Below, one piece after another: positions 39,771 to 63,155 of a stretch of 64,000 nucleotides of DNA. The number at the start of each line of letters is the position of its first letter. Position 1 is the stretch's first letter. The DNA comes from Telopea speciosissima (Eukaryota > Streptophyta > Magnoliopsida > Proteales > Proteaceae), in assembly GCF_018873765.1 (NCBI RefSeq), contig NC_057919.1, positions 63,130,484 through 63,194,483 on the forward strand. Direction: 5' to 3'. Made by a program: the position numbers and the translations under genes. The notes beneath the pieces were generated by a model that was not told the DNA's origin, searched no databases, and saw only the letters and a program-made list of their open reading frames with translations.

Positions 39771-42732
39771 TAATTTCAGGGTTGGGTTAATGCATATGGT
39801 TTATATATATGCCAACATAATATTTTTCATCATTTTAAGTATGTTCCCGCATTGGCTTTAGAAAGTCCATGTGTATCTCACCTATCATATGACCCAGTGG
39901 TGGAGCTGTGGGACATTGGCTCAGTCCTACCAAACTTTCTGTCAAAATTTGGTGGCAGCAAAATACAAACCATCTTCCAGTCTGTAGGAGCCAGTTAAAG
40001 TTGGACTTGGTGGTCAGCTCCTGTTACTGAGCCTTTGTCCTTACAAATGTCATCTGAAGAAAAAGAGTTCATAGAAATTGTGAATGCTATCTATCATCTG
40101 CTATAAGAAAGTGAACAAGTCAAATAATTATAACCCAATGCTTTTAGCATCTGTTGTGAGTCCTTTGGCTCAGATCAGTACTGTATTATCTGTTTTCATT
40201 TCTTATGTAACCTTCATTTATTAATTCAATGAATTTATATTTAAATCCAGCTAGTGAGACATAATTCTTGTTTTGCTCCTGTTTAATTGGACAGTAGCCT
40301 GTGCTTGATGTTTGCTCCCTTGATGTGCATTACTTGAACTAAACATTGGTGGTCCTAAGATTCCTGGGTAATGTGATGAAATTTAATCTACATTTCAACT
40401 TTTGCAAAACTTAATCGGCTTTAATTTTCATTTTTTGTTCTGATATCAAAGATATAAATATATTTTTTCTTTTCTTTGGGAGGGGGGGTGGGGGTTGGGG
40501 GAAGTTAAAATAGGTTGAGACCTCTTGGTTTGTCTGTATCTGTCATCAAATTATGTGATTATATTTGTCTAATCTTCAGGAGAGTTTTCACCATTACTCC
40601 TTCAACTAAACATTGGTATGAACGTAAAAAGAAGGTCCATATTTAAAGCGGGTTATTTTATCTGAAAGAAAAGAATGGTTTTCCTCCCTGTTAACAATAG
40701 CCTTTCTCCATGGGCCATGGTTATCTTTTGTCTCATGGATTTCTGAATTTTCTGTTTTTTACTAGTGGGTAGGTGGGCTATTGTTTGGTTTGCCAGGTTT
40801 TAATTTTGTGTTCTATCCCAACCATGTGGCCTTTGAAGGTTGTCCCTCGTATTGTTAATGGTCCTACTGTTTTCAAAATTAATGACTTCACAACTTTTTC
40901 AAAGCAGATTGATCAATCTCCTTAAGTTTGGTGCAATTGAGTTACCACCCTTGGCAAAAAACCAAGGGGAGAGAACCGCGTCGTGGTCCTCTATTGCCGA
41001 GCTGCCTGAACTGCTTTGTGTGCCCTAGATACAACAAGGTGGTGAAAAGACTGCCTTACCCCTGCCCGAGTGCCTTTCCCGAGTGGGTTAAGACGGTCTT
41101 TTCCACCTTGTTGTGTGTGGATGGGTTGGACGGAAGTAGGGGCAGCTCGAAAGTAGAGGATCTAGATCCGGAGAGCCTATTTCCATGGCTTGCAGATAGG
41201 ATTCTTAACATCTGAGTGAATTAGGGGATGACATAAACTCCTTTGACAATGTCATTCTCTATGGATTATTAGAATAGCCAACATGGTTGTCAGATTATTT
41301 TCCATTTAAAAAGAGTGTTACAATTGCTTATGCACAATGGATAATGGAATAAGAACTCGATCGAAACCTGTCGAAACCACCGAGTTAACTTGCTTTTGCA
41401 ATTTTTCGAGATGATTTGAAGGATGATTTTAAAAAATCCAGGGTTTCGATCAAAATGCAATGGTTTCGACATGTTTCGACCAAATTTTGGTAGTTTCGAC
41501 CTGAATACGTATATAAGTATCACTTATCCCCCGAACTTGTAAAAACCTAACTGGAAACTAGGACAAACATTTATATATTCTAGAAACTAGCCCAGACACT
41601 TATTTATGCCTAATATCGTTTAATATTTTATTTATTTAATATATTATTCATAAACAAGCAATTACTCCCTATTTGAATCTAATAAAAATAGTTAAAAAAT
41701 CAAATTCCAAAAGGATAAAAAGGCAACCCCCCAGTTCAAGAACAAAAACTGGATTTTCGGCGGTAGGTGAAATTTTCAACTTTTTAATGTTGTGGTTTTT
41801 CTCAAATCTAAAAACTTCATAAATTTTAATATAATAAAGTTAAAAATCAAAAGTGTGGTAAAATATTCATTTGTTTTGATGTCTAAAAAAATATTTTCAT
41901 TCAGAGCGATTTTAAACAGCATTCGTGCATACCAAATTAAGTTTGACCAAAATCTGATTTTTATTGAAGGAGTTATGTTCCACTCAAACCTTATTTGATA
42001 CCATGTCCAAGAACAATATACAATATCAAACTTGGATCAAAATCACAAGTATTATTTTTAGTGTTCTCTATGTGAAACTAATGCATGGATTGGGTTTAAA
42101 ATGTCAAAAATAGGCAGCACAAAAAGAATCAATTCAAAAAATAACTTGTGGGCCCCAAAACCAAGGTTCGAATTAGCTTGGGGAAAGTCCCAGGTTTCAA
42201 CCAAGATATGGTCGAAACCGAGACGAACTCGGTTTCATTATCATCTATTGATGCATGGATTGGGTAATGCAAATTTTTTTTTTGTGGATCTCACATGTTT
42301 TCTTTTTTATTCATAGGTAATAATCTACCAAAGATCATGATTTTAAGAGCGAACATCTTCCTCCATCTAATACCTTCATCTATTTTGTAGATCAATCCCT
42401 TTCTCTTTTTTGTTTTTTTGGACAATTTCTTAGATCTATAAGATAAAAACGGAAATTACAAGATAAGTAGGTTTCAAATTTGTTTTACAACCACTACTTA
42501 TCCATTTTGAAAATATTTACTCGATCCCCAAACTTGGTTAGTACTCATGCCACAGAAGAATAAAATAAAAAAAAATTTCTAAAATTACCCCAAAAATATG
42601 TTTTAAACAACAATGAGAAAATAGAAGGAAGGGGCGCACAATTTTCTTTACCTGTTTTTTTTTTTTTTAGTTATTTTTTATTGTTTTTCTCATTCGTTTT
42701 TTTTTTTTTTTACGGAGTTTCCTTCCACCCAC
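39771..42732. other. GATB 3' flank, no further gene
   Basis: Begins with the GATB 3' UTR; no single clear poly(A) signal. Open frames here lack domains, and the frame at 40,928-41,215 lies inside a hairpin element. TTTCGAC-word fragments occur near 41,350-41,505 and 42,165-42,240 without definable ends. Confidence 0.5.
40980..41180. mobile_element. MULE-like foldback MITE (family F1)
   Basis: Long hairpin. The left arm (ACAACAAGGTGGTGAAAAGA) pairs with the right arm (TCTTTTCCACCTTGTTGT), and outer parts (CCTCTATTGCCGAGCTGCC with GGCAGCTCGAAAGTAGAGG) also pair. The right end GATCTAGATCCGG resembles the GGATC end of the family. The loop has CTGCCCGAG-type sequence. Confidence 0.55.
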
Positions 42733-45700
42733 GTTTTGAGATTAAATATGTGAAATATTTTTATTCGAAAAGATATCCTCAATCGGATGTAGAAGTGAAA
42801 ATTGAGAGGGTCAGAAATGTCATAGATTTTCTCTTGAAATATTACTAGATGCATGGGTCGACTCATAGTGTTAAACTCATGCCCAAAACCTGGTTTAAAG
42901 CTCGGTCCTGACTGGTCTGATTTGAACTTGTGTAGAATCGACGACGGAATACGCCAGAGACTTGTGGGCAATGATACTCAAGCCATCTCACAAGGTCATC
43001 GACTGTAGGTCAGGGGAAGTCGTCGAGGATAGATTCATCGACAGAGATAGGGGGAAGTTTGTCGACAAAGGAGTATTCCTAACACCCTCCGCAAGTGGAC
43101 CTACAAGGCCCGTATCGGTTCCCTCCGCTACTCTACAATGACTGGGGGTAAGTCACTATTCATATATTTCATGCTTGGGCATGATTAGTAATCTATAATC
43201 ATCAAATTGGGCTTGGGACTATAGAAACCTTCAATTTAGAAATAGAATTGGACTATGGGCCTGAATGAGTTAAAAAGCCCAATGACTTAAACTAGGACCT
43301 TAGGTTAGTGTCTAACCAAACAACCCCTAGCCATTTAGACCTAAAGACCTAAACACAACCAAACATGCCCTAGCTCCAAGGTGAGGTAAATAGGGAATAA
43401 AGCAAATCACTATTCACTTCTCATTCCAAAAACCCTAAATCGATTTGAGAAGAGGAAAGAAGAAGGAGAAGAAGAAGAAGAAGAAGAGAAGGGGAAGGAG
43501 GAGAAAGCACTTATCCCAACTCATCCTACCTTGGTGAGCACTTCCATTCTCTTGCCTCTCTTTCTCCCTCCTTGCTTATTTATGTTTTGGACTTAGAATG
43601 CTTGACCTTTAATGGAGCTTACTAACTTATGTGCATGTGCAGATGTGCTTGTGTACATGTACCTGTGCAGATGTGCCAGTGCCTTCCCGAGGACACAGGC
43701 ACATGCATTCCACCCTGACTGGAGGATGCACACCTGCCTGTGTATATGTACCTGTGTCTTCCCGAGGACATAGGCACATGGAAGCCTGCTAGACAGGCAG
43801 ATGCACTTCTGGGTTGTATCAGCCTGTCAGCCTGTCTGATGCTGAGTTCCAAATCCCATTTTGGTTTTGAATCCCTTAGTTCTTAGCTCAAAGGAATCAT
43901 ACCTAATGGCTTCATATGGTCTCCTAGTCATGAGGAACACCTCTATTTAGGGTTTAATGGGTCTTAATCACTTGATTCTATGAACTCTAGGGTTTTGATG
44001 GATTCTTTAACACATCAAGGGAAGATGAGTATGTGGAGATGAACATAGAGGCATAAGGACTCATTCAAGTCCACAAATGAGGCTTAGTACCTCACCAAAA
44101 GAGAACCATTTGTGAATCTTCAAAGAAGACCTTTAATCTCTTGTTCTAAACCTAGGGTTTCACCATAAATGAGTTTGCTTGTGATTCAAAAGGGGGATGA
44201 AGGTTTCATGGGTTCACTTAACCTTACATTAATGGCATCAATGTATCCCATAATGACACAGGCACATGTACACAGTCAGATGTGCATCTACCGGTTTGTA
44301 ATTGTGACATGTGCCTGTGTCCTGTTTTGTACTTATGTACGATTGATGGTTTCCTCCCTTTCTGGGGACCTATGTATCAATTATTTACTTGTTTTGGTGT
44401 GTATCTAGGGCACCCCAAGCACGGGGGTCGTACCACATTTTAGAACGCCAAATTACTTATCGTAAAATCAAACCGAAACTCAAGGTGAGGATATTGGATA
44501 CCCCGACCTATCTTGGATTGTTATGCCTTGTTGTGTGATTGTCGTATAAGTGCTTCTTTGTTTAATGGTTGAGATAGTTTGATAGAAATGCTTGCATGTT
44601 GATGAGATTGAATGAGAAAATGGTTGTGTAATGAGAATGAGAATGCGAATGTGATTGAATGGTGAGATTGGCATGTGTGATAAGAATAAACATGGTTATA
44701 TGTGTTGAGAATGAATATGACTATGTATGTGAGAATGGATGTGGTTTTATGTTGAACGGGAATGGTTAATGGTTATGAAATGTGTGAGAATGATGGGATC
44801 TAAGTGCCGTAGTGTGCGCCGGACTTGCGATCGATAACTAAATTGTGATTGAATGTGTACGTGTAAGCTAGAGGGGGCGAAAGGATAGTAAGCCAGGGTG
44901 GAGGGACTATGGACTCGACCTCTGGCCTACACGTGTTCATACCCTCTTAGGCATTAGATGTTGTTGGTTAGGTTGATACCCTACCCAGTGCTACAACCCT
45001 TGCCAACAGGGGTTTACGTATTGGATAATCCCCCATGGGAAAACCAGCGATTCCGGTTGAGGACTGGGTTCCGATGTAGGACCAGAACCGTGGCAGTGGG
45101 ATTAACTTTGAGGGGTTTACTGGGTAAACCAGCGATTCCGGTTGAGGTATTGGGATCAGTGAGTCCGATCGAGAACCGGTACCGGTAAGTTTCCTGCGCA
45201 ACTCGGGTTTAACATCGCCGGATAGGCCATCCAGGTGTGAGTGATGGAGGGCCGGGGATGCTACCTAAGGTGTTGCAATAGCACTATACCTGACCTAGAA
45301 TTAGATGTTAGATGAACATTATTTAATGCATTCATGCGTCATGATATCTGCCATCCATGCATATTGTAACCATTTGCATGATTCGATTTACTCATTGGGC
45401 TCAGTGGAGCTCAGTCCTCGTGGAAACCTCTTTTTAGATGTTGATGCAGATGTAGTGGAGCCAGGTGGCTCAGAGTATGTGGCCCCTAAGGGCGACAATG
45501 GTGAGGACTGGTGGACCCCTAAGGAAGGGGGCATGGACCAGACTACTACTGCGAGATGTGCTACTAAGGAGAGTAGCATTGTTGGATACTGGGTCGATGG
45601 CCGCATTTTGATGTTTTATATTTTGCTACAATGATATCTTACTACTTATTATTTTAATTCCCGTCATGAGAGATGTATTATCTAAATAATATGTAATACA

Positions 45701-46440
45701 TAAGTCCAGATGGGAAAGGATCGATAATTGTTATGTCTTGTTGTGATGGAATGATAACCTTGAATAAACTGCCACAATTAATGTATTTATGTTATCACAT
45801 AGTTTCCGCTACTCTGAATATGATTATATATATTTCCTCTTGTCTTTTGATTTATCACTTGTGGTGTGGATGAGTTAGCTTAAATACTGCATTAGTGATC
45901 CTGGTGGGTGTGTGGACTGTATTTGTACGCTCCGATCATGGATTCTGGTGGTACAGGAATCAGGGTGTGACACATAGTACAACAAGAGTTGATTCAACAA
46001 CCACTTCTGATGATGCATCAATAGATGATAATGAATTTTCAGATGTGGAATTTTTTTCATGCAGTAGAAGAGGAGTGTTCCCATGTTGGATTTGAGTTGG
46101 ACAAATATTTGTTGGAAGGTATTCAGAAGGATGACACCCTTATTTTTGACATCTTGAATTGGTGGAAGATCATAATTTAAGATTTGTGATTCTAAGTAAG
46201 ATGGCTAAGGATATTTTGAAAGGTTGTTACTTGATTCGATCTTCTCAAGGTCAATTAATTCAACATCAACAGAAACAGGTGTCTGTCATAGCCAATCTTG
46301 TGTACATACCAATGTATCTACTATCTTAGGTGTCAAAGAGCTACAAAACTGATATAGAATCCTACTGTCAATGCTAAAAGTAGACTCTGAAATAACAATT
46401 GAGACAAGAATTGCCAAAACTGATCTAGAATCCTACCACC
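42733..46440 (+). pseudogene. second copy of the hAT inverted-dimer junction, split by a solo LTR
   Basis: 42,733-42,868 plus 45,973-46,440 together match the left arm and the symmetry centre of the palindrome at 7,160-7,750: the KYVKYFYSKRYPQS-coding stretch, the LNWWK region, then the same switch to inverted C-terminal sequence after GATATTTTGAAAGGTTGTTA. The inverted configuration therefore exists at two loci. Confidence 0.75.
42869..45972 (+). mobile_element. 3,104-bp solo LTR, Ty3/gypsy-like (LTR3)
   Basis: TGTTAAACTC to GGGTGTGACA, with a perfect 5-bp duplication CATAG (42,864-42,868 and 45,973-45,977). The reverse complement carries the same boxes as LTR1 and LTR2 (here GGGCTCAGTGGAGCTC at about 45,397 and AACCCTTGCCAACAGGGG near 44,995). 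No gag-pol. It has its own repeated words, CAGGCACATG/CATGTGCCTG (about 43,625-43,835 and 44,257-44,325) and GTCGTCGA/TCGAC near the left end. Confidence 0.85.
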
Positions 46441-46599
46441 ATTCTTAATAATGCATTTTGAAACCCGATTCTTCTCTTTTTTAGAATGCATTTTAAACCT
46501 AGAATCTATTCCAAGAATACATACCTAAACCTTAACCTCACTGTTCAAGAAAAGAAAGTTTGGGGTGGGTGGGTGGGTTGGGGGGGGGGGGTGGTGAGC

Positions 46600-46760
46600 G
46601 GAAAATTATCGCCCCCAGTACTGGGGGAGGTCAAGTGCTCATCATGCTGTTGGGGCACCGCCCATGTGTGCACAGTGGGCCCCACCATGCACACATGGGT
46701 GGTGCCCAACCGCACGATGGCACTTGACCGCCCCTGGTACTGGGGGCGATAAAGATCCGG
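46600..46760. mobile_element. MULE-like foldback MITE (family F2)
   Basis: Ends GGAAAATTATCGCCCCCAGT and ACTGGGGGCGATAAAGATCC. Long arms (GGTCAAGTGC..., CACC.CCCATGTGTGC) pair nearly throughout. Flanks TGGTGAGCG/GGGTGAGTG fit a 9-bp duplication with two mismatches. Same ends as F6 and F7 but almost wholly different arms. Confidence 0.75.
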
Positions 46761-47241
46761 GGGTGAGTGGCCTGGAAAGTTAAAACAGTTAGGTAGAGAG
46801 GGTTACAGCATAACATGCAAAGATACTATAATGGGTTTTTTTTTGTTGGTAAGATACTATAAAGATACTATAAAGAAAGATACTATAAAGTTGAAAAGAG
46901 AATCATCCACTAGGAAATTGAAATGGCTGCCACCAATACTTTTAAGTTGCTTGAGCCTAAGCCATTCATGACAGGTAGATCGAGGAGCAGCAATTGTGGT
47001 CCCAAGTCCCAAATCCATCTTTCGTTTCACATGGCAAAGAGAATACTTATGCGTGGAGCTTATGGTGGTGAGTTGGGTAGATGGAATCCTTGCATGCATA
47101 TATGCATGCATGTTTCAATATACAACACATAAAAGTTATCATAAACTTTCTAGATCCCATTCCTTTCCCTTTATTTTACACGGTTGTTCTGTTTTTTATT
47201 AATTCGAAGAAAATTATAGGGATAATTTCTTAGATCCATAA

Positions 47242-47632
47242 AATAAGTAAATTACACGTCACCCCTGGTTTTCAAACGAAATTCAGATCACCCCGTGATT
47301 TTTGAAAAAACTTAAATCACCTTTTGGTTTAAACCCTAATATGACAAATTAGTCCCTACCGATAGTTTTATGTTGTTAAGTGATGATGTCAGCCAGTTAA
47401 ATAAATTTAAATTCCTAAACTACCATTGACCAATGTTGAAGATGAAGGAAGGGTAGAATTGTAAATTTAATTCTAATGTTTTAGTGCAAGGGTAAAATAG
47501 TCCTTTCACACCAATAAGGAACAGCAGACTAACACTGTTACTGTAGAGGGGATGATTTGAGTTTTTTCAAAAACCAAGGGATGATCTGAGTTTCATTTGA
47601 AAACTAGGGGATGACGTGTAATTAACCCATTA
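47242..47632. mobile_element. MULE-like MITE, about 390 bp
   Basis: Inverted ends GTAAATTACACGTCACCCC and GGGGATGACGTGTAATTA resemble the GGGTAAATTACATG ends of the MULE in GATB intron 5. Arms of about 80 bp include TTTTTGAAAAAACT. The target duplication is unclear. Lies between the LTR3 locus and the glutaredoxin array. Confidence 0.6.
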
Positions 47633-48182
47633 TATTATAAAATAAGTACGTTTGATTTTGTTTTACACTATTTTGTCTTGTAAACCTACTTGTCTAGTGA
47701 TTCTTTTTCTTATCACTCTCAAACGCCATGAAGAGAAAGCATCAAACCAGTAGGAATCTCTTACAAAAACTTGCATGTTATTTAAAGATCGAGTTTTCCT
47801 TCACCCAAACATGGGACTTAATTTTCAATAGGGGGAGTAATGATGAAATCACAATGGTGGTGAAGAAATTCTATGAGTGAATAAAACTTTCCTCTATGTT
47901 AAATAGTCATTTTTTTTATCAAAATTTGACTATGCTTTGATGTGATTGATATAATGCTTGCTTGTATGATGAAATTTGAACATTCATTTTTACTAGACTA
48001 TTTAGAAGAAGCATAATAATCCATTTCATAAGGTAAAAGAGAAGGATACATGGATATAGCAAGCTAATAAATAGTTAAGGAGGACAACAACTTGATACAA
48101 TACCACAAAGCTTCATACGTAAACTAAGTGCCTTAAAAGAGAGCATATGCTTTTAATATGGTATCAGAACCGCAGCAACCAT

Positions 48183-48530
48183 TTAAGACATAACTTGATA
48201 AGGTCTGATCAACCGAGCAAGAGTACCGTTAAGGTGGAGGGACATAATTTCGTTCGTCGATCCCATCAACTTGCCACCGATGAAGATCGCGGGCACAGGT
48301 GTGCTGCAACCCATCCTCACGAGTGCCCTCTCCATTTCTTTTCCTTCAGGGTCATGGTCGAGCTCGTGAACCATGGGGTTCACACAAAGTTCATGGAAAA
48401 GAGTCTTGACGGTGTAGCACATGCAACATGAACTCTTACTGAATATCACAACTCCCTTCTCTGAGGCCAACCTCATTACCTTCTCCATCTTCTTTTGAAC
48501 TTTTGGAGTAGTTTGATATCTCAAACTCAA
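48183..48530 (-). CDS. CC-type glutaredoxin (ROXY/GRXS-like), gene 1, type a
   Basis: 115-aa single-exon thioredoxin-fold protein. The active site is CCMC in SKSSCCMCYTVK (about residues 34-37), with the N-terminal EKVMRLASEKGVVIF strand, a VPAIFIGGKLMGS glutathione-binding segment and NEIMSLHL. The length is typical of the land-plant CC-type class, which regulates TGA-type transcription factors in nucleus and cytosol. The C-terminus ends IRPYQVMS instead of the ALWL motif used for TGA repression by ROXY1, so partner choice may differ. The first ATG gives the usual family N-terminus. A TATA box lies about 120 bp upstream. Reads as intact. Confidence 0.92.
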   Translation of the reverse strand: MSLRYQTTPKVQKKMEKVMRLASEKGVVIFSKSSCCMCYTVKTLFHELCVNPMVHELDHDPEGKEMERALVRMGCSTPVPAIFIGGKLMGSTNEIMSLHLNGTLARLIRPYQVMS

Positions 48531-48650
48531 TTTTGGAATGTAACTAAGCTTTTGAAAATGGTGGAAGATAGAGAGAGCTCTTGAGGGTAGCTAGAGAAAT
48601 TTCTTGGATTTGTATTTGAGCTCTAGCTTGAGTTGGGAGGTGGCTAGAGA

Positions 48651-48664
48651 GCTCTATTTATAGG
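48651..48664 (-). promoter_or_regulatory. TATA box of glutaredoxin gene 1
   Basis: CTATAAATAGAGC on the minus strand, about 120 bp before the ATG. The same motif precedes genes 2 and 3. Confidence 0.75.
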
Positions 48665-49030
48665 GATAGGGAAGGGTTGGACTACTACTACTACTTAGAC
48701 TACTTAGACTACTTATTTCACTCAAAGGAGAATGAGAATGTACTTTAAAGGATATTTGCCTAAAAGAATCTCAAATAAAGTTTTCTCAATTCTCCCATAG
48801 AATGTTGGAAGTGGAACCCCAACAACCCAAGTTGCAAAACATACCTTTTTATGGTTCTTGCTTAGACAGGCACACACAGGCCAATAAGCCCTCCACAGGA
48901 ACTACTGATTTGGAATCTGTGTTGTCCTAGTAGAATTATAATAGAGGCATGAGAAGATTCCTACCCTATGCATGGAACCATATACTAGGGGTCCTATGGT
49001 CTCAGATCTTCAGGGTTCCCTACTTGACCC

Positions 49031-49180
49031 TCTAATGAACAATTTTAATCTTCTTTTGAGGGAAGGTCAGAAATTCGACAGAGAATAATACTAGAAAGCC
49101 AAAAGTCTAATGAACAATTTTAATCTTCTTTTGAGGGAAGGTCAGAAATTCGACAGAGAATAATACTAGAAAGCCAAAAG
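49031..49180. repeat. perfect 2 x 75 bp tandem duplication
   Basis: Two back-to-back copies (49,031-49,105 and 49,106-49,180) with no mismatch. They start TCTAATGAACAATTTTAATC and end AAAGCCAAAAG. They lie upstream of glutaredoxin gene 1. A GATA microsatellite follows at about 49,246-49,265. Confidence 0.9.
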
Positions 49181-49351
49181 GTAATACGTACGTGTTTAGT
49201 ATTGTAACCATTTGTTTGCCTTTCGTCATTGTTAATACTTTTAACGGATAGATAGATAGATAGATACCGTGGAAGACAAAGACGAAGACCGAAATGATTC
49301 TTTCGAATCATAAAAATAGATGGATCAAATTTATCTTGTGATTTTTGAAAG

Positions 49352-49486
49352 GGGTGCTATTCTCTGTGCCACAGCCCAGCCTGCGCCCAGGCACATGGGG
49401 GTGGGCACAATGACCACCCTGCCCCCTGCACAGGTTGCCCATGTGCCTAGGCGCAACCTGCGCTACAGCACAGAGAAAATTCTCTC
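49352..49486. mobile_element. MULE-like foldback MITE (family F3), 135 bp
   Basis: Arms CTATTCTCTGTGCC...CAGGCACATGG pair with CCATGTGCCT...GCACAGAGAAAAT. Flanks TTTTTGAAAG and TTTTTGAAAA give a 10-bp duplication with one mismatch. The centre GACCACCCTGCCCCCTGC matches the loop core of F6. Confidence 0.75.
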
Positions 49487-49936
49487 TTTTTGAAAACACC
49501 ACCTTTCATTGTTACATGGATAATTACCCTTTATTAGAATATAAAAATTCTATAAGTATTAACAAAAACATAAATTCATGGGGGAGAAGGAGAGGGAGGT
49601 TTTCCTAGACAATCACCCTGAAGGAGGCAATCTTGTAACCCAAAATATCTGTCACATGGTAAGTTGGCGATGGCTGAAATTTTGTGGATTAGTGGGCCCA
49701 ACGTCCTTTGTTTGTATGTTTAGTTAGGTTAGATAGTAATTGGCCATGTGACAAAATAAAATTTTAAATTTTATTTTTTGCTAAAGATCAGAAAATGAAT
49801 TTTATTACTATAATAAAATCAAAAAAAGAAATACACCATTGAACTACTAATCTACCTTTGGCTTAGCCATCAACAGAGAAGTGTAGTCCAATAAAAAAAA
49901 CCAAAGTTACGAGAACCTATATCCGAGTCTTAGAAG

Positions 49937-53266: not shown

Positions 53267-53275
53267 AACAACCAT

Positions 53276-53626: not shown

Positions 53627-53716
53627 GCTTGAATTGTGACTAAGCTTTTGAAAATGTTGGAAGCTAGAGAGCTTTAAAAGGCTGAGTTTGGAACTTGAGT
53701 TTGGAAGAGGCTAGAG

Positions 53717-53730
53717 AGCTCTATTTATAG
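53717..53730 (-). promoter_or_regulatory. TATA box of glutaredoxin gene 2
   Basis: CTATAAATAGAGCT on the minus strand, about 95 bp before the ATG. Lies within the segment deleted in front of gene 4. Confidence 0.75.
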
Positions 53731-55070
53731 ATATTGGGATGGGGAAAGGGTGGATTACTACTTGACTAGTACTTATTTCATTGGAAGATCATTCAAAAGG
53801 ATTAAGGAGAATGAGAAAGTACTTTATAAGGATATTCCCATAACATTACCAAAGAAAAATTCTTTCTCAATTCTCCTTCGGAAATGGAACTGCACCAGCC
53901 CAACTTACGAAATATACCTTTTATGGTTCCTACAAGACAGAGCACACCTCCACAGGAACCACTAAATTGTAATCTGTGTAGTCCTACAAGAATGATGACA
54001 AAGATTCCTACCCTACCCATAATGGTAGGGTCCAAGGGTCTAAGATCTTGTGGGTCCCACTTGACCATCTCAAGAACAATCCGTCATCTTCTTTTAGAGG
54101 GAAAGTGGGATTGTGGGATGGGTTTCAATCATCCGAAAGAATATAATTGATTGGAAGAGAATTTGTCAGTGAATAATACATGAAAGTCAAATGGTAATAC
54201 GTGTGAAGTATTGTAACCATTTGTTTGCCTTTCTTCTTTTTTTTTTTTAAATAACAAAAAAAATATCCTACTGAGGACCCATCAGCCCGAAAGGGTTGCT
54301 CGGTTGGCATCCAAGCTCCAAAAGAAGAGGGCGGCAGGAATGAGAAGGTGGTGGAATGAGGAAATAAAGATGTCTAACATCCAATTGGGTAAGGGGAGAG
54401 TCGAACTAGAGCTTTGAAATTTTAATGAAAAAATAAAACTCCTAAAGAATGATTTAAAAGAATAAATAGATTCCAATGCATAGAACAATATATGATTAAA
54501 TTAAAGTATAAAATTTGACATGTGATTAATCCCCTATTTTCTAGATATCTAACAGTTGGAATTGCCACAAGTGCCTTCCATGTGGCATGACTAAACTTTT
54601 AGTCTAGATTATTTCTTTAACATCCATCCGATTATATATCTTTATATGATTCATGCATTATTTCCCAGAGCTCTATTGAATGGTTGATACTTCTTGGGTA
54701 TTAAATAGATTTAAAAAACGTGGTTGAATCATATGAGTAAGTTTATTATTGTTCAAAAAGATGATTTGTTAGGTTGTGTTTGGTATCCATTCTCAAAATA
54801 GATTCTGGGTTAGAACGTATTTTGGAACCTGATTCTTCTCTATTATCTTTTTTCAGAATATAGGTCTCGACCTATAATTTATTCTGAAAAAAGATACCAA
54901 ATACAATCTTAATGTATTAAAAATAATCATAATTTGTTAGCTTTTTGTCCTTTGATATGGAAATCCTCTTTTTTGATAAAAAAACCAATGATGTAATTTG
55001 TCTTAATTAATGCAATATATTTCTTCTTGCACCCAATAAAAAGGTGCACCAGCCCATGGCCTGGAAAGTC

Positions 55071-55237
55071 GGCCAGGATCTTCTCCAGGGAGCAGGGAAC
55101 GCCCAGGGCGCTGCCAGCTGTTGGGCTGTGCCGCACACATCCCTAGACGTGCATCGAGATGTGTGCGGCACAACTTAACCGTTGAATGCCCCTTGGAAGC
55201 ACCTTGGGCGCATGCCTCCCTAGAGACGAGCTAAATT
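55071..55237. mobile_element. MULE-like foldback MITE (family F5), 167 bp
   Basis: GGCCAGGATCTTCTCCAGGG to CTAGAGACGAGCTAAATT, flanked by a perfect 10-bp duplication CTGGAAAGTC (55,061-55,070 and 55,238-55,247). The arms pair. Present in the sister repeat as F9, so it predates the 8-kb duplication. Confidence 0.85.
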
Positions 55238-55392
55238 CTGGAAAGTCAAAACAGTTGGGTAGAGGGGATTATAGATGGGGCCAAGATAGGTAGAGTAGCA
55301 CCTGCGGTCCCAAGTCCCAAATCCATCTTTCGTTTAAATGGCAAAACGTATATGTATACATGGAGCTTAGTACGTGTGGTGGGTGGGTAGAT

Positions 55393-55556
55393 GGATCTTT
55401 ATCCCCTCAATTTGCCTGGCCCTCAATTTCCTCAATTCCCGCGGAGATGACCACCCTACCCCCTGCCCGAACACACTACCCGGATGGGATCCACCTCCCT
55501 CTATTAGAGGGAATTGAGGAAATTGACGAGCAAGCAAATTGATGTGATAATTTTCC
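55393..55556. mobile_element. MULE-like foldback MITE (family F6), 164 bp, with empty site
   Basis: GGATCTTTATCCCCTCAATT to TGATGTGATAATTTTCC, with a perfect 10-bp duplication GTGGGTAGAT (55,383-55,392 and 55,557-55,566). The sister repeat near 63,296-63,312 has one GTGGGTAGAT and no insert, so it jumped after the duplication. Both arms carry TCAATTTCCTCAATTCCC. Confidence 0.92.
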
Positions 55557-56402
55557 GTGGGTAGATAGTATCGTTCCATATTTGTTTCAATATATAACAC
55601 AAAAAGATTAGGATAAATTACATAGACCTACCTTGATGAATATCTAAATTACACTTTCCCCGTGTTCCTACCATTAGTAATTTTTAGAAACAGAAAGTGT
55701 AATTTAGGCATTCGTGAGGGTCTGGGGGAATGATGTGGGACTGAGCCAGTTCCACAGTGTAATGGGTTGGAGGAATAGAGGTGAGATTTAATTTTCTCAT
55801 AAACAATAATCAAAGTCCTTTGTTTTTTGTGAGGCTTTGGATAGCATAGATGTGAGATTTTCAAGTGCCACGTCAGCAGATAAAACATTTAATGCTATTT
55901 CATGAGTTTTTATAAGGTTTTTTTTTTTTTTTTTTTTTTTTGTGATGAAACAAACAAACAAGATTAGGGTAGGATCTTGAAGTGCCACATCAGCATTTCC
56001 CCATCCTACCTAAATCTCCGTCAAACAAAAGGGCCATGGGTTCTGACACTTGGGTAAGACTTCTGGAATAATGAAAAAGACATTTCAGACTTTTATAAAT
56101 AAAGTGAATAGTGATGAGATCAAGCTTTCCTCAATGTTATATAGTCATTTTTAGTAGAATTTGACTATGTTTGGTGTGATTCATATAATACCCACTTATA
56201 TAATGGAATTTAAACATTCATGTTCCACTTTATATGAGTAAACATATAATAATCCATTTCATAAGGAGAAAGAGAATGTTACATGTATATAGCAAGCTAA
56301 TAAATAGCCAAGGAGAACAACTACCTGATACAATAGAGGGTTTCTTAGGTAAACTAGTGCCTAAGGAGAGAACATATGCTTTTAATAATATGGTATTAGA
56401 GC

Positions 56403-56496
56403 TGGAAACAGCTTCTCTAGAAACAGGGATAAAGCTGCATACATTTGACTCTTCCCAGACCCTGCTAAATGCGGTAGCCTTGTGCATTGAGTACAG
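56403..56496 (+). mobile_element. 5'-truncated SINE in the 3' flank of glutaredoxin gene 3
   Basis: GCTGCATACATTTGACTC to GCCTTGTGCATTGAGTACAG matches the 3' half of the SINE at 3,714. It is flanked by about 20-bp repeats CTTTTAATA...TGGTATTAGAGC (56,379-56,402 and 56,498-56,518), so the primer-site remnant itself was the target. Absent after genes 1, 2 and 4. Confidence 0.8.
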
Positions 56497-56530
56497 CCTT
56501 TTAATATGGTATTAGAGCCGCAACAACCAT

Positions 56531-56878
56531 TTAGGACATAACTTGATATGGTCTGATCAACCGAGCAAGAGTGCCATTAAGGTGAAGGGACATAATTTCA
56601 TTCGTCGATCCCATCAACTTACCATCGATGAAGACCGCGGGCACAGGTGCACTGCAACCCATCCTCATGAGTGCCCTCTCCATTTCCCTTCCTTCAGGGT
56701 CATGGTCGAGCTCGTGAACAATGGGATTCACACAAAGTTCATGGAAAAGAGTCTCGACCGTATAGCACATGCAAGATGAGCTCTTACTAAACATCACAAC
56801 TCCCTTTTCTGAGGCCAATCTCATTACCTTCTCCATCTTCGTTTGAACTTTAGGAGTAGTTTGATTTCTCAAACTCAA
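56531..56878 (-). CDS. CC-type glutaredoxin-like, gene 3, type a, catalytic Cys lost (SCMC)
   Basis: 115 aa, collinear with gene 1 and uninterrupted. The active site reads SKSSSCMCYTVE, so the first cysteine of CCMC (the nucleophile) is serine through TGT to TCT. The glycine pair in VFIGGK is VFIDGK. In known glutaredoxins the first cysteine attacks glutathione mixed disulphides, so this protein should lack normal oxidoreductase activity, though the second and fourth cysteines remain. The TATA box is kept (57,007-57,020). It could be a protein-binding variant or a decaying copy. A SINE sits in its 3' flank. Confidence 0.85.
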   Translation of the reverse strand: MSLRNQTTPKVQTKMEKVMRLASEKGVVMFSKSSSCMCYTVETLFHELCVNPIVHELDHDPEGREMERALMRMGCSAPVPAVFIDGKLMGSTNEIMSLHLNGTLARLIRPYQVMS

Positions 56879-57006
56879 GCTTGGAATGTGGCTAATTAAG
56901 CTTTGAAAATGTTGGAAGCTAGAGAACTGTTGAGAGTAGAGAAATGCTTATGGATTTGTATTTGAGAGTAAAGTTTGGAGCTTTTGAGTTTGGAAGAAGG
57001 CTGGAG

Positions 57007-57020
57007 AGCTCTATTTATAG
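57007..57020 (-). promoter_or_regulatory. TATA box of glutaredoxin gene 3
   Basis: CTATAAATAGAGCT on the minus strand, about 135 bp before the ATG, in the same context as genes 1 and 2. Confidence 0.75.
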
Positions 57021-57233
57021 GGTTTGTTAAGGAAGCGATGGACCACTACTTGACTAATTGCATTGGAAGACTGTTCAAAGGAGAATGACAATGTACTTTA
57101 AAGGATATATGGCCCAGTAGAGTATCAAAGAAAAACTTTTCTCAGTTCTCCCAGTGATATGGAACCCAACTACCCAAGTTGCAAAATATACTTTACATGG
57201 TTATTGCAAGACAGGCACACGCAGGCCATAAAG

Positions 57234-57411
57234 GGAAAATTATCACCTCCAGTTTGTTGATCGGTCCAGTTCCCCAGTTCCTCTAATAGGGGGATGGTGG
57301 ACCCCATTTGGGCAGGGTGTTTGGGCATGGGTAGAGAGGTCATTTCAGCCCCCCTTTGTTAGAGGAACTGGGGAACTGGGCCGGTCAGCAAACTGGAGGT
57401 GATAAAGATCC
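57234..57411. mobile_element. MULE-like foldback MITE (family F7), 178 bp, with empty site
   Basis: GGAAAATTATCACCTCCAGT to GGAGGTGATAAAGATCC, with a perfect 10-bp duplication GGCCATAAAG (57,224-57,233 and 57,412-57,421). The paralogous site upstream of gene 1 (about 48,876, CAGGCCAATAAGCCCTCC) has no insert. Both arms carry CCAGTTCCCCAGTTCCTCTA. Confidence 0.92.
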
Positions 57412-57579
57412 GGCCATAAAGACCTTTTACAGGAACCACTCATGAATTGGAATCTGTGTTGTCCTAGTAGAATGATAATAGAGGGATGACAAGATTCCTA
57501 TCTATTATGCTTCCATCTTAAAATCAATTGGTTGATAGTGGGGTGGTATCTTGTGGCTCTTATACTTGATAGTCGGAGC

Positions 57580-57907
57580 CATGGTTTGAGGTATCGGATC
57601 AGATTGATCGATTCACCGGATTGGATTGGTATCAGTCGAGGCCGATCCTGAGATTTGACCGATACAATAAGGTTTGATTAGATCGCCCAACTCAGTTGGA
57701 TCGGTCAATCAGATCTGATCCTTGACCGATCCAATTAAATATTTTTTTTTTTTATTTTTTAAAGTTTTAAAGTTTTTTTTTTTAGTTTCTTATATTATCT
57801 TGACCGATACTGACCGATATTGATTGATACCAATCAATTTTGACCGATCCGATCCGGAGATCACAACACCTATCAACTCTAGTCGATACATGACCCGATC
57901 CATAAAA
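57580..57907. mobile_element. 'GATCGG/CCGATC' word element (family B)
   Basis: CATGGTTTGAGGTATCGG start as at 51,003. Inside are many GACCGAT and GATCGGT words around T-rich tracts. The right end is decayed. Confidence 0.6.
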
Positions 57908-58231
57908 AAACTATTTTGGGGGATTCCATGCATGTTTCAATACAACACAACGTTATCTTAAAGTTTCAAGATCCCATTCTTTTCCTTTTCTTTCCCTCCA
58001 TTTTACACGTTCTTTTCTCTCTCTCTCTCTCTCAAAATTTTTTTTGGATTAAAAAGAAAAATAAAGAAGAATATTAGGGCAAAAGATTTGCATGATGACG
58101 GCGAACGAATTCGCACACAGAGACACGAAATGGTGGGTCCCACATAATTCTCTTTTGGTAAAAACCTGTTTTTTTAACGGATTAGTTACCTCTCGCTTCT
58201 TCCTTGTTTGCATGTGGGCGTCATAACGAAC

Positions 58232-58409
58232 GAATCGTTATCCTCTACAGTTCCCCATCCGGTGCGATTCCCTAGTTCCTCTCACAAGAGGGGGGTGGGA
58301 CCCACCCGGAGCACCTACCCAAACAGTCTGCCCAGGTGGGGTCCACCCTCTTATTGTGAGAGGAACTAGGGAACCGCACCGATCAGGGAACCATACACGA
58401 AAAAAATTC
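58232..58409. mobile_element. MULE-like foldback MITE (family F8), 178 bp, with empty site
   Basis: GAATCGTTATCC to GAAAAAAATTC, flanked by CATAACGAAC and CATAACAAAC (10 bp, one mismatch). The sister sequence near 51,968-51,985 (GGGCGTCATAAGGATCCC) lacks it. Both arms carry TTCCCTAGTTCCTCTCACAA. Confidence 0.88.
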
Positions 58410-58790
58410 CATAACAAACCCTCGCTTGAAATATTGTAGAACTTGTCAGGAAGATATGGATTGAAGTCAACGGATATTTGAAAATATGTATTCGATCTAT
58501 ATTTGTAACTGTTTAGTTGAAATCAAATCCATTCGAAACTAATCGGATACAAATATGATAATCTCTTTATCCAATTTATTTAGCAATCTAACAGTAATAA
58601 AATGTCTGAAATATATCTTTGTGTTCATCTATCCGATTAAGTTAACATTATTGGATTTTGTTTTTTTATTTTTTTTATTTTTTATAATTTTATAAATTAA
58701 GATAATGTGATTTTTTTTCATATTTTCTATTGATTTATATATATTATTTTATGCACTGTGATACATGGAATCACATATCTATTCAAATAA

Positions 58791-60485
58791 GGGTAAAATA
58801 CAAGTACCCCCTATAATGCACCCAATATTCCTCGTATCCCCTAAGGTTCTGACAAATCCACGTACCACCCCTACTTTGCCCCCCTAATTCCAGACAAGTC
58901 CAAACCGTTAAGTTTAGGTGTTAAGTGCTAAAAACTTGACCATTTTACCCTTTCTTCTATGTTTATAAATTTGAAAAGATCTAATTGTCCTGACCTATTT
59001 GTTTATAATATGAAAAGACCTTTTTGTCCTAACCTAATTCGATAAGAACCTTTTACCCCCATTATTTGTTCTTAAGAAGCCAACCCAACCTAATTACCAA
59101 AATGCCCTTACTAGGGCATAATTACCAAAATACCCTCATCTTCCCCAAAATCCATCTTCCATTTCTGAAACTTCTCTCAAAAGATTCAACATTAATTTTC
59201 CATTTCTATGCACACTACAGTACCTTTGATTCTGAACTATATCTCCCTCACCCCTTCTTCTTCTTCCCCCATCTTCTAGGCGAAGGACTACCTGCCCTTG
59301 GCAACCTTAGCCTTTGAATCTCAGACTCTAAATCCTTCTATATCGTGGAATATCAAACTAAGACAAATACTGATCTCTATCCTACCGCCAACAACAACTT
59401 TAGGTGGTTTTATTTGATGGTTCACACGCTGTTTCTCTGTACTATTACTTGAGCTTCATTGGACTGGGGTTCGAAGACGTTATCCCAAAATCTCGGTTCC
59501 ATTGAAATATTGTTGAGAGAGATTCAACCGTCATAGAGTTTTGTTTTTCCATCCTAGTTCGAAATCCAGAGGTAGAAGACAATCTATTCTTCCACTCTTT
59601 TTCTATTGTCTTTTCCTTTTGTTATTGTTACTCCTTCGCCTACAAGTTGCAAAGAGAAATCATGGCCCGCGGCTTTCCGGCACAAGTAACGAACAAGTAA
59701 TCATGGCTTGCAGGTTTTTTCAAACCCTAAACAAGAAGATTTACCAGATCAAGCTCCCAAAAGAGATTCGTCACAGCAGATGTGTTGGTTCCTCTTTCGG
59801 CTGGCTTGTAATCCTCAATGGATTCTGCCGCATTTTTCTCAGAATTAATTTCTCTCTCTCTTGAAATCTATATCCTTCATTCTATTATTGCTACCTCATT
59901 CCACACCTTCGACTGCAACCTCAAACCCACCTCCTTTTTCCTTTTTTTTTTTTCTCCGCAATTTCTTCAACCCCCACCCTCGCCCTCGTGTTTCGCCAGT
60001 AGCCAAAAAAAAAAGAGTGAATAAAGAAGAGAAAGACGAAATTAGAGAACAAAAACCAGTCTGTGTTGGATTTTGAGAGAAGTTTTAGAAATGGAAGATG
60101 GATTTTGGGGAAGATGAGGGTATTTTGGTAATTATGCCCTAATAAGGGCATTTTTGTTATTAGGTTGGGTTAGGTTCTTAAGAACAAATAGTGGGGGTAA
60201 AAGGTTCTTATCAAATTAGGTTAGGATAAAAAGGTCTTTTCATATTATGAACAAATAGGTTAGGGCAATTAGGTCTTTTCAAATATATAAACATAGAAGA
60301 AAGGATAAAATGGTCGAGTTTTTAGCACTTAACACTTAAACTTAACGGTTTGGACTTGTCTGGAATTAGGGGGGTAAAGTAGGGGTGGTACGTGGAATTT
60401 GCAGGGGTAGTACATGGACTTGTCAGAACCTTAGGGGGTACGAGGAATATTGGGTGCATTATAAGGGGGTATGTGTATTTTACCC
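58791..60485. mobile_element. Pack-MULE: 1,695 bp, terminal repeats of about 400 bp
   Basis: Inverted repeats 58,791-59,182 and about 60,072-60,485 (GGGTAAAATACAAGTACCCC outward) enclose about 890 bp. The target duplication is 9 bp, TTCAAATAA/TTAAAATAA, and the empty site is visible inside the D elements at about 1,550 and 52,340. The centre holds a fragment resembling an F-box/DUF295 protein and no transposase. Confidence 0.9.
59690..59864 (+). pseudogene. captured fragment resembling an F-box/DUF295 protein
   Basis: The frame at 59,541-59,864 includes KIYQIKLPKEIRHSRCVGSS followed by FGWLVILN. This resembles the conserved LPE..RCCGSSHGWLV segment of plant DUF295 (F-box associated) proteins. 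Only this segment is recognisable, and the frame around it is low-complexity. Its place between MULE terminal repeats suggests gene capture. The match is by memory of the motif. Confidence 0.5.
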
Positions 60486-61433
60486 TTAAAATAAATACAA
60501 GATAAAATCAAAAGTAAAAAAACGTAAGAAAATCAAAGACTAAGAAGAGTAGAAGAAAGGGTAAGTTGTTGAACTCTCAACTCTCAACCCTAGCCCTCAT
60601 CAACAAAACAGTAAGATGTCAACGGATAGTCAAAAATTCGTATTCGATGCGCGTTTATATCCATTTAGGAGAACCCATATTAAAAAAAAAAATTACAATC
60701 CGAAAACTATTCGAAACTGTCTGAATATAATCGGATATGAATATGATAATGTCACTATCCGACCAAATTCGATCCGTTTAAATCCTTAGGTATGGTATCA
60801 AACCAAGAGGGATCGATCTCCTACAAAAGTTTACATGTAATGTAAGGACCGACTGTTTCTTCACCCAATCATTCATGGGTTTTGACACTTAGTTAAGACT
60901 TTTAATTTTAAAATAATGAAAAAGACATTTCAAACCTTCATCAATAGGGGGGGAAGTAAGTAATGATGAAATCACAATGGTGGGTGAATAAAACTTTAGC
61001 CTATGTTAAATAGTCATTTTTATCAAAATTTGGCTATGCTTTGTATTCTTCAATCATGATGTTAACTGGGATGTTCAAATGAGACCCATATACAGATTTT
61101 GTTGAGTTTTACTTCTCCTTTGCTTGATTCGCTTCTTTGTTGATGGTCATGCCGAAGTTGGAATAGTAGATCAACGGTGTTTATCTTTTACAAATATACT
61201 TTTGTTGAGCTTTACCAAAAAAATAATTGAACATTCATGTTCCTCTTTATATGAGTAAATATTCAAGAAGAGACACAATAATCCATTTCATAAAGAGAAA
61301 GAGAAGGATGTAACAAGTTAATAAATAGCCAAGGAGAACAACTACTTGGTACAATAAAGGGCTTCATAGCTAGGTAAAATAGTGCCTAAGGAGAGGACAC
61401 ATGCTTTTAATATGGTATCAGAGCAACAACCAT

Positions 61434-61784
61434 TTAGGACATGACTTGATATGGTCTGATCAATGGAACAAGTGTGCCACCAAGGTGGAGCGACATAACT
61501 TCATTTGTTGATCCCACCAATGTAGCACCGATGAAGACTGCTGGCACACCTGTGCTGCAACCCATCCTCATAAGTGCCCCCTCCATTTCCTTTCCTTCAG
61601 GGTCCTGGTCGAGCTCATGAACCATGAGATTCACACAAAGTTCATGGAAAAGAATCTTGACCGAATAGCACATGCAACATGAGCTCTTACTAAACATCAC
61701 AACTCCTTTTTCTGAGGCCAATCTCATCACCTTCTCCATCTTCCTTTGTACTTTAGGATGAGTAGTTTGATTTCTCAAATTCAA
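61434..61784 (-). CDS. CC-type glutaredoxin, gene 4, type b, TATA region deleted
   Basis: 116 aa, collinear with gene 2. CCMC is kept (SKSSCCMCYSVK). Changes from gene 2 include MNL at the start, EGALMRMGC (R to G) and FIGATLVG, where the second glycine of the conserved GG pair becomes alanine. The frame is intact, but 45 bp upstream of the ATG (at about 61,829) the sequence jumps to what lies about 285 bp upstream in gene 2. The TATA box and most of the leader are therefore gone. Expression would need a new promoter. A Copia primer-site remnant follows the stop codon as in its paralogues. Confidence 0.85.
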   Translation of the reverse strand: MNLRNQTTHPKVQRKMEKVMRLASEKGVVMFSKSSCCMCYSVKILFHELCVNLMVHELDQDPEGKEMEGALMRMGCSTGVPAVFIGATLVGSTNEVMSLHLGGTLVPLIRPYQVMS

Positions 61785-62987
61785 GCTTGAAATGTGACTA
61801 AGCTTTTGAAAATGTTGGAAGCTAGAGAAAATATACCTTTTATGGTTCTTACAAGACAGAGCACACCTCCACAGGAACCACTAAATTGTAATATGTGTAG
61901 TCCTACAAGAATGATGACAAAGATTCCTACCCTACCCATAATGGTAGGGGTCCAAGGGTCTAAGATCTTGTTGGTCCCACTTGACCATGTGAAGAACAAT
62001 CCATCATCTTCTTTTGGAGGGAAAGTGGGATTGTGGGATGGGTTTCAATCATCCGAAAGAATATAATTGATTGGAAGAGAAATTCGTCAGTGAATAATAC
62101 ATGAAAGTCAAATGGAAATACGTGTGAAGTATTGTAACCATTTGTTTGCCTTTCTTCATTTAAAAAAAAATAAATAAAAAATCCTACTGAGGACCCATCA
62201 GCCCAAAAGGGTGGCTAGGTTGGCATCCAAACTCCAAAAGGAGAGGGCGGCAGGAGTGGGGAGGTGGTGGAATGAGGAAATAAAGATGTCTAACATCCGA
62301 TTGGGTGGGTAAGGGGAGAGTCGAACTAGAGCTTTGAAATTTTATTGAGAAAATAAAACTCCTAAAGAATGATTTAAAAGAATAAATAGATGCCAACGCA
62401 TAGAACAGTATATGATTAAATTAAAGTATAAAATTTGACATGTGCCTAATCCCCTATTTTCTAGATATGCAACAGTTGGAATTGCCACAAGAGCCTTCCA
62501 TGGGGCATGACTAAACTTTTAGTCTAGATTATTTCTTTAACATTCATCCACTTATATATCTTTATATGATTCATGCATTATTTCCTAGAGCTCTATTGAA
62601 TGGTTGATACTTCTTGGGTATTAAATAGATTTAAAAAACGTGGTTGAATCATATGAGTAAGTTTATTATTGTTCTAAAAGATGATTTGTTAGGCTGTGTT
62701 TAGTATCCATTCTCAAAATAGATTATGGGTTAGAACGTATTTGGAACTTGATTCTTCTCTATTATCTTTCTTCAGAATAAACCTATAATTTATTCTGAAA
62801 AGAGATACCAAATACAATCTTAATGTATAAAAATAATAATAATAATTTGTTAGCCTTTTGTACTTTGATCGGGAAATCCTTTTTTTTTTGGTTAAAAAAG
62901 AATGATGTAATTTGTCTTAAATATTAATGCAATATATTTCTTCTTGCATGTAGTAAAAAGGTGCACCAGCCCATGGCCTGGAAAGTC

Positions 62988-63155
62988 GGATCAAGATCTT
63001 CTCCAGGGAGTAGGGAATGCCCAGGGCGCTGCCAGCCGTTGGGCTGTGCCGCACACATTCCTAGGCGTGCGCCGAGATGTGTGCGGCACAACTTAACCGT
63101 TGGATGCCCCCTGGCAGCACCCTGGGCACGCGCCTCCCTGGAGATGAGCTAAATT
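62988..63155. mobile_element. MULE-like foldback MITE (family F9), sister of F5
   Basis: 168 bp between CTGGAAAGTC and CTAGAAAGTC (62,978-62,987 and 63,156-63,165). Same insertion as F5, copied with the 8-kb unit. It offers a direct comparison of arm evolution since that duplication. Confidence 0.8.

Follow-up and report, generated by a model that had tools for sequence, protein, structure and literature searches.

The DNA considered here is a window (by which is meant the whole stretch analysed) of 64,000 nucleotides from Telopea speciosissima (assembly GCF_018873765.1, contig NC_057919.1, positions 63,130,484 to 63,194,483 of the forward strand), and the subject is a family of short foldback elements, that is to say miniature inverted-repeat transposable elements (MITEs) with hairpin arms, of which several copies lie in it. 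Across the copies of this family in the genome, left arms descend from left arms and right arms from right arms, and the changes that follow insertion mostly affect one arm; between certain subtypes, a short block has changed in both arms, with unequal left and right states retained beside it. It is judged rather likely that such paired founding changes arose by rare template switching from arm to arm, over short tracts and in source elements, followed by amplification of the rewritten element.

The ends of the family are unequal and fixed by side, being GGAAAATTATC on the left and GGATCTTTATC on the right in three elements of the window, F2, F6 and F7 (the pair is also written GGAAAATTATC / GATAAAGATCC); that these three have common ends had been stated in the initial annotation of this DNA, and both 11-bp ends are indeed exact in all three. 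When the assembly (822.9 Mb in 1287 contigs) was searched with an exact pattern consisting of the left end, 120-150 bases and the right end, 340 places were found, and none with a reversed control pattern; this spacing leaves out longer copies, for instance F7, which has 156 bases between its ends. Two equal ends at the same spacing occur at only 2 places (left-left) and 3 places (right-right), from which it follows that the ends are unequal and side-fixed, and that equal ends are rare. The flanking repeats, or target site duplications (TSDs), are perfect over 10 bp for F7 (GGCCATAAAG) and F6 (GTGGGTAGAT), and agree at 8 of 10 positions for F2. Taking the best match of 9 or 10 bp of flank in 197 genome copies, 75 copies have no mismatch and 43 have one, the corresponding values for shuffled pairing being 0.36 and 0.22; the repeat is exact over 10 bp in 34 of the 197, and exact over 9 bp but not 10 in another 41. 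Elements of the Mutator-like (MULE) superfamily make target duplications of 8-11 bp, usually 9 bp, and judged by duplication length alone the present family would be a MULE foldback MITE. In the case of F6 a filled and an empty site can be compared directly, as positions 54386-56200 of the window match 62306-63942 (at 91.6 and 94.9% in two pieces, the comparison having covered 54300-56200 against 62300-64000 only), and F4 and F5 lie in this duplicated segment together with the F6 site, filled or empty. The paralogous segment has GTGGGTAGAT once, and what is absent from it is exactly the element plus one GTGGGTAGAT; by this comparison, F6 would be younger than the segment duplication, or else was cleanly lost from one of the two copies.

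The copies were taken in contig order, through their similarity to F6, F2 or F7, or with a pattern for the C type (the type of F2), and so do not constitute a random sample. Removing 9 duplicates from 209 copies left 81 of C type and 119 others. Five of the latter were set aside in the analyses of motifs, private variants, nearest neighbours, trees and split subtypes, namely four C-like copies (L063, L176, L186 and L192), which entered neither set, and one false hit in the window (minus strand, about 41157), which is still present in the raw table of arm lengths. A first copy set, biased in that it had been filtered for hairpins, was kept out of the arm counts, while a set of 99 copies used for nearest neighbours has exact ends and is unfiltered for pairing, 13 of its members having been found by similarity to F6. 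The groups used for private variants and for differences between majority sequences are rough (L151, L167 and L175, for example, are misfiled); the C blocks and split subtypes were classed arm by arm.

In the A, B, D, E and F types the arms can be aligned, often with three units of a short motif in each, which is CCAGTT, TCAATT or CCATTT according to subfamily (the motif was looked for outside C, and up to three degenerate units per arm were found in the A/E, B and D types). The C type has the family ends but not these arms, and is palindromic almost throughout. Full-length matches to F7 at 97-98% identity were found at 39 other scored places (of 2265 candidates), matches to F6 at 83-87% at 39 (of 2836), and matches to F2 at 85-95%, covering 133-159 of its 159 bases, at 39 (of 642); A1, the F7 type, is thus a young subfamily, and B (F6 type) and C (F2 type) are older or more diverse. 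Majority sequences pair better than copies do: that of A1 has identical arms over positions 7-53 (47 bp without a mismatch), with the loop core in between, and those of B and C1 have about 3 and about 5 mismatched columns respectively.

The initial annotation had held that the two arms of one copy resemble each other more than arms of different copies do. As an average this is correct (mean identity 0.744 within copies against 0.575-0.592 between copies, n = 99), although the agreement turns out to be mostly a matter of subfamily structure. Of the 198 arms in this set, 161 have as their nearest neighbour an arm of the same side in another copy, 31 an opposite-side arm of another copy, and only 6 their own partner; for the 81 C copies (162 arms) the figures are 127, 28 and 7, and for the 114 non-C copies (228 arms) 173, 48 and 7. 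Trees built with FastTree give the same picture, in that 104 of 116 cherries join arms of the same side, 3 join a copy's own pair and 9 join opposite sides of different copies (49, 1 and 4 in the C tree; 55, 2 and 5 in the other), and there are 18 changes of side on the C tree and 25 on the other, compared with 47-61 and 65-85 respectively in 30 shuffles. Grouping of arms by side was the outcome set down beforehand as counting against arms remade as a pair, and on the pooled trees and nearest neighbours that is how it came out. As a positive control, whole-arm copying was planted in 10% of copies; arms closest to their own partner then numbered 14-23 of 162 and 20-31 of 228, two to four times as many as before.

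Within coarse clusters, a copy's own arms are closer than re-paired ones in A/E (p 0.0002), C (p <0.0002) and B (p 0.045), but not in F or D. When the types are split, own and other left-right distances are 0.177 and 0.182 in C1 (35 copies, permutation p 0.06), 0.165 and 0.168 in C2 (11 copies, p 0.31), 0.215 and 0.201 in C2r (10 copies, p 0.995), 0.185 and 0.199 in C3 (9 copies, p 0.13), 0.196 and 0.197 in B (43 copies, p 0.29), 0.191 and 0.164 in A (10 copies, p 0.85) and 0.340 and 0.278 in D (6 copies, p 0.81). Since, in addition, arms of the same side are less distant from one another than a copy's left arm is from its right in C1, C2, C2r, A and B, the arms must descend side by side, and agreement within a copy mostly reflects membership of a subtype.

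What happens to the arms after insertion is seen most directly in variants private to one copy. There are 280 of these in left arms and 285 in right arms, and only 9 coincide in both arms of a copy, as against 6.0 expected by re-pairing; both-arm transitions (3 against 2.55 expected) and both-arm insertions or deletions (indels; 0 against 2.17) are no commoner than chance would have them, and for indels held by up to 2 or up to 3 copies the both-arm counts are 0 against 2.9 and 1 against 14.6. The 22 copies of A1 show 19 one-armed differences and a single paired one, and, because the site of the latter has changed in 6 of the 22, it is probably a parallel mutation. F7 itself has private C>T changes at left-arm positions 24, 28 and 32 that the right arm lacks. 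Among the 79 true members measured (of the 119 non-C entries), 28 have a shortened arm, and in 24 of these the shortening is one-sided. After insertion, then, the arms decay independently, and private changes are mostly one-armed. Comparison of F5 with F9, two copies of a hairpin outside the family that lie in the duplicated segment, had been proposed in the initial annotation; it gives 21 differences with flanks included, mostly one-sided, with 4 of them making up 2 pairs of partner positions altered in both arms, numbers too small to be decisive. Deamination was also considered as a source of both-arm changes and was rejected, the private transitions being at chance, though transitions held by up to 3 copies do exceed expectation (31 against 15.1).

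The differences between subtypes are of another kind. Counting differences between majority sequences (the groups being rough, and many columns of the A-F types unclear), those in both arms outnumber those in one for B/D (6 against 2), C3/C4 (4 against 0) and C2/C2r (4 against 1), and are outnumbered for C1/C2 and E/F (1 against 3 in each). In the C type there is an inner block of 12 bp that is of the same class in both arms in all 72 copies where both could be classified (9 of the 81 could not), classes 1 and 2, which are one G apart, being counted as one. Between C2 and C2r this block differs in both arms, and the unequal left and right states beside it are retained: column 28 has A on the left and T on the right in 6 of 11 C2 and 8 of 10 C2r copies, and column 68 has A on the left and G on the right in 7 of 11 and 5 of 10. 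Retention of these states implies that the block changed in both arms after the left and right arms had diverged, and that the tract concerned was no longer than some 40 bp.

A second such tract is found in C1, where, of 35 left arms, 30 have A at column 38 and 32 have an extra G at column 46; among non-C1 arms the extra G is absent from 92 of 92, and column 38 is G in 84 of 92. The right arms of the 35 C1 copies divide into 20 with the old pair of states, 10 with both left-arm states, 3 with only the A, 1 with the A and a different insert, and 1 that fits none of these. One of the ten left-type right arms belongs to a copy with a flipped interior (L129, see below), leaving nine plain cases, in 8 of which a right-arm deletion at column 33, just 5 columns away, has been kept; A at column 54 is kept in all 35 right arms. 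These states read as short-tract copying from left to right. Eight C1 copies of this tract kind also share a left-arm deletion, which means that most of them represent one event inherited by many, and L135, with a third left-type site, may be a second event or an earlier stage. In both instances, the C2/C2r block and the C1 tract, a change of several bases matches between the arms and is bounded by unchanged flanks, as would be expected of template switching. As to the source of the C2r block, a perfect repeat of at least 7 bp is found in 10 of 21 class-2r arms, which is no more than suggestive of templating by ATCGTGC of the same arm. In L161 the left arm has an inner hairpin ATCGTGT/ACACGAT where the right arm has ATCGTGC/GCACGAT, a compensated pair within a single arm, in which both changes are transitions.

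Paired states can also be seen outside C, both arms of A1 showing TTTGCTGACC at a place occupied by CCTGCCC, again in both arms, in the A/E majority. Three A-type copies, L097, L115 and L199, have TTTGCTGA confined to the left arm, their right arm having TTGGCTGCCC, and share the loss of a left-arm unit; they possibly represent a stage before the block had reached both arms.

Direct signs of exchange are seen in two individual copies. L129 has its interior flipped relative to its ends, with left and right states swapped at 4 of 5 sites (the fifth is right-type in both arms), while its 9-bp TSD is intact (TTAGTAGTG on both sides) and each end has one mismatch; inversion of the interior between the arms, which template switching could also produce, is thus seen in 1 of the 35 C1 copies. 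L203/L206 (G000 C3:18143890-18144046) has ordinary left and right arms with a right-type end on both sides, and a 204-bp inverted repeat of its flank (about 88%) is centred exactly on it, as if the right end of L203, together with neighbouring DNA, had been copied to the left. L203 is one of the five equal-ended places counted above; for the other four, L201 (two left halves), L202, L204 and L205, no target duplication was seen by eye; in the last three, two left or two right halves of different subfamilies are joined, and they are probably rearrangements between neighbouring copies.

In the scheme suggested by these observations, transposition copies each element unchanged, so that copies of a subtype share left-arm and, separately, right-arm states, and the arms then decay independently; this much the data show. 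Rarely, and in the lineage of a source element, some 10-40 bp of one arm would be replaced by a complementary copy of the other, the likeliest mechanism being template switching across an extruded hairpin during replication, although in most cases the direction of copying can only be conjectured. The rewritten element would then amplify, founding a subfamily whose arms are new and yet match each other. The outermost 6 bp would be spared because an equal-ended element does not spread, as the near absence of equal ends suggests. The same hairpin might occasionally flip the interior, or copy an end and its flank to the other side (one copy each). The claim that arms are remade or converted as a pair is supported in this narrower sense, for short-tract changes in both arms at the founding of subtypes and by the two copies that show exchange, and is not supported for each transposition or copy.

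Among other explanations, the one nearest to the claim as originally made is that every transposition or its repair overwrites one arm by the other, giving self-matching arms in every copy. Higher mean identity within copies than between them would fit this, as would an excess of own-arm similarity in groups E and F and an excess of both-arm changes among variants held by 2-3 copies, but it is very hard to reconcile with the rarity of own partners as nearest arms (6 of 198, 7 of 162 and 7 of 228, the last two being below what the control with 10% planted copying gives), with the three left-only changes of F7 and the 19 to 1 ratio in A1, or with the one-sided shortening of arms. As a general rule it is rejected, on the evidence of nearest neighbours, trees, private variants, split subtypes and the planted control, and must be considered most improbable, although the data are compatible with such conversion in a few percent of copies. 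A rather less remote alternative, though still an unlikely one, is ordinary divergence combined with selection for pairing, whereby only well-paired elements move and substitutions in one arm are later compensated in the other. The better pairing of subfamily majorities than of copies (A1, B and C1) looks as if mobile copies must pair, and variants of a few copies do occur in both arms above chance; against this, the C2/C2r changes are clustered in 12 columns of each arm, none of the classifiable copies among the 81 having the block in just one arm, and the right arm of C1 carries its insertion and substitution together.

It is also conceivable that elements recombine, a central segment with both inner blocks being exchanged between subfamilies in one tract. 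Block class does change 22 times on a tree built without the block (42-48 in 30 shuffles), so that the block is partly independent of the arm, and chimeric elements (L202, L204 and L205) exist, but all 21 class-2r arms found in the 81 copies are in the C2 frame with no donor seen, the C1 right-arm tract is left unexplained, and the origin of the donor's matching arms is merely shifted elsewhere; this explanation is accordingly thought improbable. Slightly less credible again is coevolution with the transposase, in which the repeated arm motif (CCAGTT/TCAATT/CCATTT, about 3 per arm) would be a putative binding site that changes with the enzyme. The same main motif is indeed found in both arms of 89 of 114 copies, with 404 units of the main motif against 5 of another (the arms differ in main motif in 5 of the 114, and at least one arm lacks a motif in 20), though part of this agreement is built in, as the main motif was chosen by its count. 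Stretches outside the motif co-vary as well, as in the A1 and A/E arms already described, and the C subtypes co-vary in a block that has no motif. Pairing selection, exchange of central segments and coevolution of motifs nonetheless remain either rivals or partners of template switching.

It must also be acknowledged that several observations weigh against the explanation by rare template switching. Both-arm transversions exceed expectation among private variants (6 against 1.29, p 0.002, 3 of the 6 being in one six-copy group with a misfiled member) and among variants held by up to 2 or up to 3 copies (14 against 3.9 and 32 against 7.9), as do both-arm transitions in the latter classes (14 against 9.3 and 31 against 15.1). 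The clearer excess in these latter classes is what small subtypes with paired changes, or misfiled copies, would be expected to give; the excess is due in part to misfiled copies and unsplit subtypes, but may also mean that copying is more frequent than proposed. In the coarse cluster C (17 copies), own identity (0.804) is higher than left-left (0.785) or right-right (0.751) identity, and the closeness of own arms in coarse A/E, C and B is cleared by splitting for C and B, but own arms remain closer in the mixed leftover group E (47 copies, 0.440 against 0.489, p 0.002) and in the F type (8 copies, 0.378 against 0.416, p 0.03), and the own distance in C3 is slightly below the left-left distance (0.185 against 0.193, p 0.13). 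The short hairpin repeat that might have templated the C2r block is only weakly above shuffled blocks, which reach its length in a median of 10% of trials. Finally, the polarity of the changes is deduced from parsimony among subtypes of one genome, and the exchange cases L129 and L203 are single copies.

The window itself contains nine hairpins (F1-F9), which the initial annotation took to be one family. Membership was assessed by blastn with the 197 genome copies as queries (E-value up to 1e-3), and most of the length is matched only in F2, F6, F7 and F8, the last at 71% over 154 bp relative to an F7-type copy, with flanks CATAACGAAC / CATAACAAAC that agree at 9 of 10 positions. All four of these fold as hairpins (using RNA parameters) with arms that are long relative to the loop, and in a hairpin scan F2, F6 and F7 score 94, 54 and 81, while no hairpin in three base-shuffled windows scored above 29. 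The words cited from the arms of F6, F7 and F8 do occur in both arms of each, and F2 had rightly been described as having different arms: it is matched by 85 queries, 84 of them C-type or C-like, while of the 80 C-type queries none matches F6 and 1 matches F7. Homologous arms and loop are shared by F6 and F7, and F2 is the same only by its ends. Table 1 lists all nine hairpins and the empty site of F6.

Table 1. Hairpins of the window, and the empty target site of F6 (positions are those of the window).
Feature	Position	Strand	Description
F1 core	41031..41114	+	hairpin with weak loop-core match only; membership not shown
F2	46600..46758	+	copy of subfamily C1, almost fully palindromic; both ends exact, other arms; TSD 8/10
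F3	49360..49477 (about)	+	hairpin of another multicopy family; only loop core AATGACCACCCT.CCCCCTG in common
F4	54771..54909	+	AT-rich hairpin in duplicated segment; no blastn match to family
F5	55095..55215	+	hairpin in duplicated segment, pair of F9; non-member
F6	55393..55556	-	subfamily B copy, each arm with three TCAATT units; both ends exact; 10-bp TSD GTGGGTAGAT
F7	57234..57411	+	copy of subfamily A1 (young); both ends exact; TSD GGCCATAAAG on both sides
F8	58232..58409	-	diverged relative: family loop, homologous arms, different outermost bases
F9	63013..63135	+	duplicate of F5; non-member
F6 empty target site	63300..63309	+	single GTGGGTAGAT in duplicated segment; alignment of 55241-55720 with 63151-63470

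F3 and F1 match the family queries in the loop core only, F3 over 28 bp at 93% (best E-value 1.65e-5, with 15 of the 197 queries) and F1, within 41033-41087, over 35 bp at 83% (E-value 5.1e-5, 4 of 197); F3 has a family of its own, with 39 other scored places (of 2716 candidates) at 89-91%. F4, F5 and F9 gave no blastn match to any of the 197 queries at E-values up to 1e-3, and there is one further weak match in the window, at 24766-24807. The central core AATGACCACCCT.CCCCCTG of F6 and F7 is thus carried by hairpins of other families with different ends and arms, and may be older than the arms or have passed between families. Unrelated to the MITEs are an inverted repeat of 334 bp at 58849-59182 and 60071-60404 (94% complementary, 888 nt apart), and the sole reading frame of at least 220 amino acids in the window, at 14409-15095 (plus strand), which codes for the initial portion of a GatB-like protein (subunit B of Asp/Glu-tRNA amidotransferase, E-value 6e-63, below the curated cut-off) and is probably one exon of a gene for an organelle-targeted protein.

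The family resembles other non-autonomous foldback MITEs of the MULE type in plants in its 9-10 bp TSDs, its hairpin arms, its being too short to encode a transposase and its copy number of hundreds or more, and differs from them in having unequal ends fixed by side. The closest precedents for exchange between arms come from other systems. For Galileo, a Foldback-like element of the P superfamily in Drosophila, the portions of the literature consulted describe repeats that are 98-100% identical within a copy, with exchange between repeats proposed (PMC3573991), a closer match between the repeats of one copy than between those of different copies, true of copies 1 and 2 but not of 4 and 5 (Table 2 of PMC2775673), and ends more conserved than the rest (PMC4168063); Galileo repeats are long, in contrast to the arms of some 50-75 bp seen here, which group by side and have tracts of a few tens of bp. 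Tm1, a Mutator/Foldback element of root-knot nematodes, is, to judge from the parts of its description consulted (PMC3169594), Foldback-like with asymmetric outer motifs on its two ends and 9-bp duplications, as here, but has an animal host and composite inverted repeats of variable length; those parts contain nothing on block-wise paired arm changes. In yeast genes, according to the sections seen of PMC8604942, template switching between inverted repeats homogenises the arms and inverts the spacer, and the likeness extends to the matching of arms in short multi-base tracts; template switching can, from what was seen of PMC8794818, both create and mend (RNA) hairpins. Such homogenisation is described for genes and not as an origin of transposon subfamilies, the words "transposon" and "transposable" being absent from the main text of PMC8604942, and among the matches listed in a search of titles and abstract openings of open-licence papers there was none on arm-to-arm rewriting in plant MITEs.

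The analysis separates arms that match through subfamily membership from arms that match through copying, and, with its unequal ends and side-specific states serving as internal markers, the family could be used to measure the tract length and rate of arm-to-arm copying within one genome, and to tell whether it is hairpin copying, rather than slow compensation, that creates new MITE hairpins. A broader proposal, offered tentatively and with rather more doubt than confidence, is that the hairpin is itself the engine of subfamily birth, short-tract template switching rewriting an internal block in both arms and the requirement of transposition for unequal ends stopping homogenisation at the border. 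If true, the switch points could be read from the hundreds of copies.

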